Virus record (IMG/VR): IMGVR_UViG_3300008050_005326
Coordinates: 1-24,291 of that record
DNA length: 24,291 bases
Direction: 5' to 3' (one strand)
From: a virus
Every line of letters begins with the position of its first letter. The first letter of the stretch is position 1. The notes under the pieces were generated by a model that did not search any database, had not been told where the DNA came from, and was given only the letters and a program-made list of their open reading frames with translations. The position numbers and the translations under genes were made by a program. This document shows positions 21,437 through 24,291 of this stretch, piece after piece.

Positions 21437-23503
21437 CTATCCGGTGCGCTCTGACTTTGTCTTCAGAGCTTCATACTTGCCCTTGTCGTTCTTTACGAAC
21501 CCCTCAGCGTCCCACTCGAATCGCTCGTCCACGATGGTGATCAGGTCGTTGTGGTACGCCTTCCTGAACGCAATCAACAGAGGCTCACGAGAAGCGGGGG
21601 TTTGCAGGAACCACACAGCCTTCAGGGTCTCTGTGTACCCCTTCGTGCGGCGCTCCTGCTCGTAGTCGTGACCGTGCCCGTAGTGCTCCCACGCTTTCAG
21701 CGCGACCTTCCCGGGGCCGTTCAGCTCTCCGATCACGTATGTGTCCGCGTGCCCGTAGAACGACACCGCTTTCGCGATCTCGTCCGCGCTAATCTCCGGG
21801 TCGATCCGCGTCCGACGCACAGCGCAGACGAGGCCGTCGTTCACTCGCGCTACGCCGATCGGCGAGTAGTCGCTGTCGTTCAGCCCGTCCGCAAAGTCGC
21901 CGGCGACCGCGTAGTACGCCTTCTCACCAGGAGGGAGTGGGGGCGGGTCCCACATATACCAGCCGCCGCGGACAGTGTCGCGGAACCCCACACTGTTCCG
22001 TACGGTCTGGACCTGCGCTCCGAACCCTGTCGTGGTCCACTCGAACTCACCGATGCGGTCCGCCGCCCTGCTCGCCTGGAGCCTCATGAAGAACCCACCA
22101 GAGACCAGTCCGAGCGATTCTTCGTACGTGTACGGGTACTCGGTGTGAACGAGCAGCAACTCGTCCAGCTCTTCGATCTTCCGCCGCCTGAACCCTACCT
22201 GCTCTGGTGTGAGCCTAAGTTTGCGAGCGTAGTCCTTTTCGCAGATCGGGTGCGGCTCGCCGTCGTCGCCGATCTCAAAGTCTGCAAACCTCCCGGCCGG
22301 GTTCGTTTCCTGCCTAGGTCCTGGTACAGGGTCGCCAACGTTACTCGCAAGCGACGCCGCTCCGAAGAACTGGAAGTCAACGTACGAGAGGACGGCGATG
22401 CGGTTCAGCTCGTGTGCCTGCTCGTCGTTCGTTCCCTCGTGCGCAATTACGTTGCGGGTCGACGGGTACACCGCGGGCAGGATCGCCTGATTGATGTTCG
22501 ACCAGACCTCCCCGCCTCCAACCCGCTCGTACTTCCCCGCCTCTGAGATGATGACCAGGTTGTACCCTGTGGCGCCGACCTTCTGCACGCCGCCGCTCTT
22601 GATGTCCGCGTGCCTGATCTCCCAGGCCGAGCCGTTCGCGAGCGCGAGCTTCCCCTCGGTGTAATTCTCCTGGATGAGCGGTGGGTACAGGTGCGGCCAC
22701 TTCGCGTTGAGTTCCCGCAGGTCAGCGGCGATGTCTCTGAGGTGGTCCTTCGCGTCGTCCTTCATCGGCAGGTGGAGCAGTGTCGCCCAGACGTCGATGT
22801 TCGCCCCGCAGAGCACGCTGAACTTCTTCCAGAACGTCGTGCTTCCGACCTTACGCGGCTTCGTGCGAGTGATCCAGTGCTTGTCCGTGGTCAGGCGCGG
22901 CTTGTGTACAACCTTCCCTCTGCGCACCCGTAGCGTGGTCTCTGGCACATGCGGGTCGTCGTTGGCCCACCTCTCCAAAAAGGGGCCGTAGCACTGGCGC
23001 TGGTAGCGGGAGCGGGGGTCTATCCCATCGAGGTCGAAGGGGATGATGTCCTTCTTGATCAGGCCCTGGGCATCTTCCGAGGTCAGCTGCGAGTTCACCG
23101 TCAGGAACGTCCGCATCCACTCCTTCGGCTTCTTGAGCGCCATCTTCCTGGCCTCGTCGCGCGTACCTCTGCGGGTCCCCTTCTCTGTGCCATTCTCGTT
23201 GTGGAGGTCGTCTTGAAGCTCGACCTCATCGCGCGATGCTGTGATCACGTCCAGGGAGGGGAGCGATGCGTCAGGCTTTGACTCGATTACTGAGTCGAGG
23301 ACCTTGTGCGCTCTGGTTCCAGCCATGACCACTGCGAACGCGGCCTGTACGTACCAGTGGTTCGCGGGCAACATCTTCCGCAGAAGCTCTGTGCTGGAGC
23401 GGATCTTGTCGTCGAGCTGCTCTCGGTCCGCGTTTGTGCAGTCGAGAGCAGAGCGGCGAGAGACAGCGGCGGCGAGGTCTCGCAGGGACCAGGAGTCTAC
23501 CAT
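21437..23503 (-). CDS. Terminase large subunit (packaging ATPase-nuclease)
   Basis: The protein powers DNA packaging and cuts the concatemer. The ATPase domain has a Walker A-like KPRKVGSTT at 215-223, a Walker B-like LVIISEA at 316-322 (Ser-Glu instead of Asp-Glu, a known variant) and a coupling-motif-like HEGTND at 355-360. The RNase H-type nuclease domain shows GDFADG with Asp536, then Asp543/545, then GELNGPG with Glu593, and a likely third acid at Asp653. The 688-residue length includes about 200 residues before Walker A, a longer N-terminus than in many relatives. The gene overlaps the preceding small gene by seven bases and has no strong ribosome-binding site, so translation is probably coupled. 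Confidence 0.88.
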   Translation of the reverse strand: MVDSWSLRDLAAAVSRRSALDCTNADREQLDDKIRSSTELLRKMLPANHWYVQAAFAVVMAGTRAHKVLDSVIESKPDASLPSLDVITASRDEVELQDDLHNENGTEKGTRRGTRDEARKMALKKPKEWMRTFLTVNSQLTSEDAQGLIKKDIIPFDLDGIDPRSRYQRQCYGPFLERWANDDPHVPETTLRVRRGKVVHKPRLTTDKHWITRTKPRKVGSTTFWKKFSVLCGANIDVWATLLHLPMKDDAKDHLRDIAADLRELNAKWPHLYPPLIQENYTEGKLALANGSAWEIRHADIKSGGVQKVGATGYNLVIISEAGKYERVGGGEVWSNINQAILPAVYPSTRNVIAHEGTNDEQAHELNRIAVLSYVDFQFFGAASLASNVGDPVPGPRQETNPAGRFADFEIGDDGEPHPICEKDYARKLRLTPEQVGFRRRKIEELDELLLVHTEYPYTYEESLGLVSGGFFMRLQASRAADRIGEFEWTTTGFGAQVQTVRNSVGFRDTVRGGWYMWDPPPLPPGEKAYYAVAGDFADGLNDSDYSPIGVARVNDGLVCAVRRTRIDPEISADEIAKAVSFYGHADTYVIGELNGPGKVALKAWEHYGHGHDYEQERRTKGYTETLKAVWFLQTPASREPLLIAFRKAYHNDLITIVDERFEWDAEGFVKNDKGKYEALKTKSERTG

Positions 23504-23811
23504 TCGATCTTTTCGCCGTAGGCACGTTGGATCTTTTTCGGCTTGTCTTCCTTCAATTCAAGAAGGGTTTTGAGTGCCTTCAACCGGATCGCTGGGTCTT
23601 CGACAAGCGTTTCGCTGACGACCTTACCTTCGCCGTTGCGGACGATGGTTCGTTTCACTCCTTGTGTTGCGAGGTCAATGATCCCTGCCAGTAGCGCATC
23701 ATCCGTTGCGCCGAGGCGTTCCATTGCCTTTGCGAGCTTGTTCTCGCGCGTGGGCGCAGGTGTATCTATGTCGCGCGTAGTGGGCAGGAAGGTGACGTTA
23801 CTGTCTTCCAT
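23497..23811 (-). CDS. Terminase small subunit candidate, 104 aa
   Basis: First gene of the leftward late block and directly upstream of the large terminase, whose start it overlaps. The product is a mostly helical, charged protein with helices around residues 23-50 and 70-90. The conventional DNA-binding helix-turn-helix of small terminases is not obvious, so the call depends on position and size. The ATG at 23811 has no Shine-Dalgarno and lies about seven bases after a good -10 box, so the mRNA may be leaderless. A later ATG at codon 30 is possible but less likely. Confidence 0.6.
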   Translation of the reverse strand: MEDSNVTFLPTTRDIDTPAPTRENKLAKAMERLGATDDALLAGIIDLATQGVKRTIVRNGEGKVVSETLVEDPAIRLKALKTLLELKEDKPKKIQRAYGEKIEW

Positions 23812-23817
23812 GCCTGT

Positions 23818-23845
23818 AGTGTAGCGGCTTGTTTTGCGTTGTCAA
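23818..23845 (-). promoter_or_regulatory. Consensus-like leftward promoter for the late block
   Basis: On the minus strand TTGACA (23840-23845) is followed after 16 bases by TACACT (23818-23823). The expected start point, about seven bases downstream, is the A of the small-terminase ATG at 23811. Both boxes are sigma70-type. Confidence 0.6.
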
Positions 23846-23952
23846 GTGGGATGTTGGAAGGGTCATTGTCGATGGGTTTTGAAAAATTGCCAATCCGGTT
23901 GAGGGTGGGATACTGATTATTATTACGGTCCACCCCGACCGTCGTGCAGTTC

Positions 23953-23981
23953 ATTGTACCCCATGCGTGCGTGAAGGGCAA
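23953..23981 (-). promoter_or_regulatory. Leftward promoter next to the first repeat pair
   Basis: On the minus strand TTGCCC (23976-23981), a 17-base spacer and TACAAT (23953-23958, five of six to consensus) form a plausible promoter. The -35 is weak, which fits activator dependence. The direct-repeat pair lies four bases upstream of the -35. Confidence 0.55.
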
Positions 23982-23985
23982 GAGA

Positions 23986-24003
23986 GCTTACAAACGCTTA
24001 CAA
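23986..24003 (-). repeat. Direct-repeat operator pair 1
   Basis: TTGTAAGC occurs twice on the minus strand with a 10-bp period (23996-24003 and 23986-23993). This spacing puts both copies on the same face of the helix, as for a dimeric or cooperative activator. It lies just upstream of the -35 of the promoter at 23953-23981. Confidence 0.7.
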
Positions 24004-24030
24004 TTCTCAGCGACCCACCTTCGCAGACGT

Positions 24031-24061
24031 AGCATAGCACACTTCGACCAACAAAGGTCAA
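24031..24061 (-). promoter_or_regulatory. Leftward promoter next to the second repeat pair
   Basis: On the minus strand TTGACC (24056-24061), a long 19-base spacer and TATGCT (24031-24036) preceded by TGC, an extended -10 feature, form a possible promoter. The repeat pair lies one base upstream of the -35. The distance from repeat to -10 (26 bases) nearly equals that of the other module (27 bases). Confidence 0.5.
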
Positions 24062-24062
24062 T

Positions 24063-24080
24063 GCTTACAATTGCTTACAA
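24063..24080 (-). repeat. Direct-repeat operator pair 2
   Basis: A second pair of TTGTAAGC copies with the same 10-bp period (24073-24080 and 24063-24070). It starts 77 bp from the first pair and is in the same orientation. Confidence 0.7.
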
Positions 24081-24141
24081 TCGATAGCTGGCATGAACCT
24101 TGCACCCGCGTGTGTGCGTCACTCTGATCTCCATGTGTAGA

Positions 24142-24156
24142 TGAGAATGATTCTCA
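24142..24156. promoter_or_regulatory. 7-1-7 palindrome resembling a Fur box
   Basis: TGAGAATGATTCTCA is a perfect 7-1-7 palindrome. It matches the published Fur 7-1-7 consensus TGATAATNATTATCA at all but two symmetric positions. An AT-rich TATAGAT (24164-24170) follows and could be a -10 box for rightward transcription. Another dimeric repressor is equally possible. Confidence 0.45.
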
Positions 24157-24191
24157 ATCTCAATATAGATCGAAAGAATCGTGATCTTTGT

Positions 24192-24221
24192 TTGACAGGC
24201 TCAATCCGTTCGTCGTAGTCT
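24192..24221 (+). promoter_or_regulatory. Possible rightward promoter with perfect -35
   Basis: TTGACA (24192-24197) is followed after 18 bases by a poor -10 candidate TAGTCT (24216-24221, three of six). The -10 would lie inside the inverted repeat at 24205-24239, which could then act as an operator. The poor -10 keeps this uncertain. Confidence 0.3.
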
Positions 24222-24239
24222 TTGACTACGACGAACGGA
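24205..24239 (+). promoter_or_regulatory. Perfect 16-bp inverted repeat overlapping the ribosome-binding site
   Basis: TCCGTTCGTCGTAGTC at 24205-24220 is followed by a TTT loop and its exact complement at 24224-24239. As RNA it would form a very stable hairpin that pairs three of four bases of the GGAG (24237-24240) used by the next gene. As DNA it is a 35-bp palindrome fit for a dimeric repressor. There is no T-run on either side. Confidence 0.7.
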
Positions 24240-24247
24240 GCGCAGTG

Positions 24248-24291
24248 ATGCAAGATCGATACCAAATCTTTCACGACAAGACCCGAAACGC
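24248..24291 (+). CDS. Start of an unidentified rightward gene (cut by window end)
   Basis: An ATG at 24248 follows GGAG (24237-24240) at seven bases and opens a frame that runs off the window: MQDRYQIFHDKTRN and on. A GTG three bases upstream is an alternative start. Fourteen residues are too few to identify the protein. Its place across the control region from the late operon suggests an early, regulatory or lysis gene. The strong hairpin over its ribosome-binding site predicts tight translational or transcriptional control. Confidence 0.5.
   Translation, partial: MQDRYQIFHDKTRN

Follow-up and report, generated by a model that had tools for sequence, protein, structure and literature searches.

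The sites of lambda CII consist of two direct half-sites, TTGC-N6-TTGC, with a 10-bp period; they straddle the -35 box and serve lysogeny promoters. Direct repeats are also found upstream of late promoters in phages of Gram-positive hosts. Alt of TP901-1 binds four imperfect direct repeats (-76 to -32) in front of the late promoter, and for Ltr of Phi13 the direct repeats at -107 to -42 are required, their deletion abolishing promoter activity (PMC13123087). In Phi11, the gene encoding RinA lies upstream of terS (PMC13123087). A different role is described for SPP1, where the pac region carries direct repeats and overlaps PL1 and PL2, the two late promoters, as well as the beginning of terS (PMC6316719); conservation of pac box A does not extend to SF6 (PMC4737164). 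The terminase represses its own synthesis, according to a title cited in this literature (PMC6316719; PMC4737164). Finally, Apl of phage 186 is described as binding direct repeats that are one helical turn apart and lie between divergent early promoters (PMC7498355).

Here we analyzed paired direct repeats in a 24,291-nucleotide stretch of viral DNA (hereafter, the window). The window is 99.96% identical (10 substitutions) to the contig IMGVR_UViG_3300025133_000214 (44,945 bp), which extends 8.6 kb past its right end. None of the substitutions falls in the divergent hub, a region of 376 bp (23812 to 24187; 48% G+C) between the late and early arms. Leftward from the hub runs the late arm, with a small gene in the terS position, terL, and the genes for portal, capsid, tail, and internal proteins. 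This block comprises 16 genes over ~21 kb, and its largest internal gap measures 64 nt, compared to 376 nt for the hub. The hub is thus the only gap big enough for a late promoter, and the late promoter is expected there. The first gene of the late operon (23497 to 23811, minus strand, 104 amino acids) is a putative terS by position and length only, and a family match was not found for it. The terL gene (21437 to 23503, minus strand) encodes 688 amino acids in the window and 751 in the other contig; at 21437-21439, the window record has a TAG stop where the other contig has GAG, which is either a truncating variant or a sequencing error.

The early arm runs rightward and contains small open reading frames (ORFs) and genes for an SNF2-type helicase, a CHAP endolysin, a primase-helicase, and a D12 methyltransferase. 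Its first ORF (24188 to 24291, plus strand) continues beyond the window (L003 8693-8466, minus strand) and encodes 75 amino acids from a TTG or 55 amino acids from the ATG at 24248. A candidate early promoter with a borderline score (TTGACA, 18 bp, TAGTCT) lies at 24192 to 24221 on the plus strand. Its -10 box is overlapped by a perfect 16-bp inverted repeat with a 3-nt loop (24205-24239; RNA fold z of -4.9, without a T run), which ends ~50 bp before the end of the window and might act as an operator or form a leader hairpin. The hub also contains a perfect 7-1-7 palindrome, TGAGAATGATTCTCA, at 24142-24156 (0.04 expected at up to two mismatches in L003). It resembles a Fur box and does not match the 19-bp Escherichia coli Fur consensus within three mismatches. 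A tRNA scan of the additional contig and an Rfam scan of the hub region returned nothing relevant.

Two pairs of the octamer TTGTAAGC are present on the minus strand of the hub. Pair A (TTGTAAGC AA TTGTAAGC) occupies 24063 to 24080 and is the candidate regulator site of a promoter-like sequence named P1; pair B (TTGTAAGC GT TTGTAAGC) occupies 23986 to 24003 and is that of P2. The distance from start to start is 77 bp. The first-pass annotation had reported this unit twice on the minus strand, and both occurrences are exact matches (24080-24063 and 24003-23986). Its view that chance is an unlikely explanation is borne out as well. Five copies of the octamer are present where 0.11 would be expected, and the whole window holds two TTGTAAGC-NN-TTGTAAGC sites at up to three mismatches against 0.06 expected. 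Dinucleotide shuffling of the hub (20,000 rounds) never produced two tandem pairs of one 8-mer, and any 8-mer was present four times in only 0.01% of the shuffles. A count over the 44.9-kb contig, in line with the check proposed in that annotation, located the exact pair at the hub only, and the exact octamer one further time elsewhere. Outside the octamers, modules A and B are dissimilar. Since their likeness stops at the repeats, the kept unit is the octamer and not a long duplicated segment; a simple segment duplication is ruled out by the differing flanks of the two pairs. Pair A is, in addition, a perfect double decamer (two copies of ATTGTAAGCA), and the reverse complement of the octamer, together with a flanking T, contains TACAAT. 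The octamer pairs are a real, well-placed cis element.

We then considered the promoter-like sites next to the pairs, called with a sigma-70 weight matrix based on the E. coli consensus, which may not be that of the host. The late-sense scan covered 890 bp; for shuffled sequence, the maximum score was 8.2 at the median and 11.5 at the 95% point. The three top late-sense scores belong to P3, P2, and P1, all on the minus strand. P1 (24031 to 24061; score of 11.3) combines TTGACC, a 19-bp spacer, and TATGCT preceded by TG, and P2 (23953 to 23981; score of 11.9) combines TTGCCC, 17 bp, and TACAAT. P1 begins 1 bp after pair A, and P2 begins 4 bp after pair B. The -10-like boxes are where the first-pass annotation had placed them: TATGCT starts 26 bases past pair A and TACAAT 27 bases past pair B, a matching offset (±1) with a chance probability of ~0.002 to 0.007, according to how wide a range is allowed. 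Its description of the -35 boxes as weak does not apply uniformly, P1 matching the consensus at five of six positions and P2 at four of six. With transcription starts estimated 7 nt after the -10 box (24024 for P1 and 23946 for P2), pair A would span about -56 to -39 of P1 and pair B about -57 to -40 of P2. P3 (TTGACA, 16 bp, TACACT; 23818 to 23845; score of 12.9), which had not been annotated before, has no octamer pair and directly precedes terS. Its estimated start coincides with the A of the terS ATG, where a ribosome-binding site is absent; the terS message may be leaderless, or the true start may be the internal ATG at 23724. Consensus matches alone would be no proof of promoter activity. 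We discarded a MerR-type interpretation of the 19-bp P1 spacer, the nearby imperfect dyad being off-centre in it.

The best explanation, to which we give about an even chance of being correct, is that the octamer pairs are binding sites of a phage-encoded regulator from the early arm that activates the late operon. We infer that a protein binds the pairs, that its effect is activation and not repression, and that the phage encodes it, and we consider activation by a pair-binding regulator probable. An early-arm protein would bind the octamer pairs, each TTGTAAGC being read by one subunit, so that two subunits would be neighbors on the same DNA face. The bound subunits would lie directly upstream of the -35 boxes of the tandem late promoters P1 and P2 and would contact RNA polymerase, leading to leftward transcription of the ~21-kb packaging-head-tail operon. 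This reading is favored by several observations: each pair is immediately followed by a different one of the three top-scoring late-sense promoter matches, the operator position falls within -57 to -39 in both modules, the arm that departs from the hub in the opposite direction is an early one with replication genes, and conservation between the modules is confined to the octamers. It is weakened by the absence of a recognized activator among the scanned phage proteins, by the fact that the only other copy is near-identical, with the same hub in both, and by P1 and P2 being not especially weak while P3 lacks repeats. The late activator switch proposed in the first-pass annotation is therefore supported in part: position, orientation, helical period, and promoter distance fit a regulator of the late promoter, whereas no activator gene was recognized among the ~30 proteins scanned and no relative shares the hub.

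The regulator search compared ~30 phage proteins to Pfam, PHROGs, and NCBIfam, some small ORFs being searched in some of these libraries only. None of the known activator families (Ogr/Delta, CII, Mor, RinA/ArpU, Ltr, or other helix-turn-helix families) was recognized among these proteins, nor was an integrase or a lysogeny repressor. This extends the earlier remark that no activator gene is identifiable in the window, and the suggestion to look elsewhere in the genome for a small DNA-binding protein led to no recognized regulator among the ~30 proteins. One weak lead is a protein of 127 amino acids with two zinc ribbons (contig 1357-1740; L035:1357-1740). One of its ribbons is NrdR-like (E value of 0.08, below the cutoff), and the other resembles the C terminus of B12-dependent ribonucleotide reductase (E value of 1.4e-7). 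A 69-amino-acid zinc protein (contig 38814-39023) and a basic protein of 154 amino acids (contig 37421-37885) are further weak leads. The zinc-ribbon candidates gave no match to Ogr/Delta (PF04606) at E ≤ 10. Structure predictions made without alignments were of too poor a quality for fold searches.

The octamers could instead be packaging repeats (pac or cosB) bound by TerS, perhaps serving TerS self-repression as well. We regard this as unlikely, and it is nevertheless the main rival to the activator reading; at SPP1, pac coincides in part with two late promoters and with the beginning of terS. The pairs lie directly upstream of terS, as do the SPP1 pac repeats, and the window record stops ~210 bp from them. 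However, the 44.9-kb contig crosses the hub unbroken, which argues against fixed cohesive ends there, and the DNA-binding domain of SF6/SPP1 TerS shows little specificity for pac repeats (PMC4737164). Moreover, the predicted structure of the putative TerS (pLDDT of 61, made without an alignment) is too weak to reveal a DNA-binding fold.

It is quite unlikely, in our view, that the pairs form a repressor operator at which an early Cro-, Apl-, or RDF-like protein would block a late promoter or the divergent early one. Apl of phage 186 is a precedent for helically phased direct repeats (PMC7498355). The TACAAT in the reverse complement of the octamer plus T points the same way, a weak early-sense promoter match overlapping pair A. 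This match scores only 8.9, however, compared to the shuffled-maximum median of 8.2, and the late -35 boxes are left uncovered by the pairs, which are situated upstream of them. The scan that recognized neither an integrase nor a lysogeny repressor also speaks against a repressor.

Direct repeats of about one helical turn are common among the sites of response regulators, and many origins are marked by direct repeats. The period of the pairs would suit sites of a host regulator, such as an OmpR-type response regulator, or replication iterons, and we consider both very unlikely. OmpR-type boxes usually have a spacing of 11, whereas the spacing here is 10 bp. In 399 Pseudomonadota genomes, the motif was not enriched, one-mismatch pairs being about as frequent as those of the reversed control, and this favors a phage-encoded protein over a common host regulator. 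The exact pair was found in none of these genomes outside one array in Massilia. As for iterons, which the first-pass annotation had named as a finding that would speak against a switch, the proposal gains no support: iterons would be several, next to an AT-rich unwinding region and an initiator gene, whereas there are only two pairs here and the primase gene is far away.

A scan of genome contigs for two pairs gave one match, a decamer array in Massilia psychrophila with ten tandem copies of ATTGTAAGCG/T (L148:415-512), flanked by a gene resembling a ligD-type 5' end and by a secreted-protein ORF. No other exact pairs were found among 246 genomes of the same family. In IMG/VR, the pair scan returned 30 contigs, compared to 24 for the reversed control, and two pairs were present in this phage only; a core-relaxed scan returned decamer arrays with the octamer core in three contigs and one larger duplication. 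We rejected the M. psychrophila and IMG/VR decamer arrays as homologues and read them as unrelated minisatellites. That the pairs are themselves a functionless decamer minisatellite, born of chance or slippage, is hardly credible, for even though pair A is a perfect double decamer and such core-sharing arrays exist in M. psychrophila and three IMG/VR contigs, two separate pairs carry the same octamer with different flanks and matched promoter spacing, and two tandem pairs were seen in 0 of 20,000 shuffles.

We also searched for relatives of the phage. The near-identical contig was the sole match in IMG/VR scans with TerL and capsid, and profile scans returned distant relatives only (about 24 to 33% identity). 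From about 30% identity up to the near-identical contig, no relatives were found; the hub DNA had no real match among phages, and no relative shares it. A literature search on the octamer TTGTAAGC gave nothing relevant among the matches listed. We tentatively suggest, as a possibility that we hold to be somewhat doubtful, that this is an orphan lineage in which the whole late operon is run by tandem promoters with their own TTGTAAGC pairs and by an undescribed activator family. The element itself is ordinary in kind, and none of the early-arm proteins scanned matched a known activator. The octamer pairs provide a short, defined DNA target for fishing out the late-gene regulator of a phage in which almost no early gene is assigned. 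In addition, the question of activator versus packaging function for terS-proximal repeats becomes testable in one small region.

Compared with known systems, the two direct half-sites and their 10-bp period recall lambda CII. Unlike at CII sites, the half-sites here are 8 bp long, differ in sequence, and lie upstream of the -35 box, and the scanned proteins include no CII homologue. The comparison to CII made in the first-pass annotation is a loose one beyond the shared period, the repeats of Alt and Ltr being nearer in position and function. Late activation of the Ogr/Delta type of phage P2 is not indicated either, as the zinc-ribbon candidates matched no Ogr/Delta zinc-finger activator. As at the Apl sites of phage 186, helically phased direct repeats lie between divergent arms; however, Apl is also an excisionase binding att, and no integrase was recognized here. 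The resemblance to SPP1, a 44-kb phage, is that terS is immediately preceded by direct repeats and by two late promoters, but the SPP1 region is a packaging site, whereas the hub is a candidate for one by position alone. As in the Ltr and Alt systems, direct repeats lie here just upstream of the promoter-like sites of a packaging-head-tail block. In contrast to Ltr, Alt, and RinA, which belong to phages of Gram-positive hosts and have their regulator gene near the promoter, this locus has two promoters with one pair each, a different repeat sequence, and no regulator found. Because no homologue of RinA, ArpU, or Ltr was found among the early-arm proteins scanned against Pfam, PHROGs, and NCBIfam, we do not assign the locus to the Ltr/Alt/RinA type. 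Nevertheless, our best reading, by analogy, is that the octamer pairs would work like the Alt, Ltr, and RinA systems.
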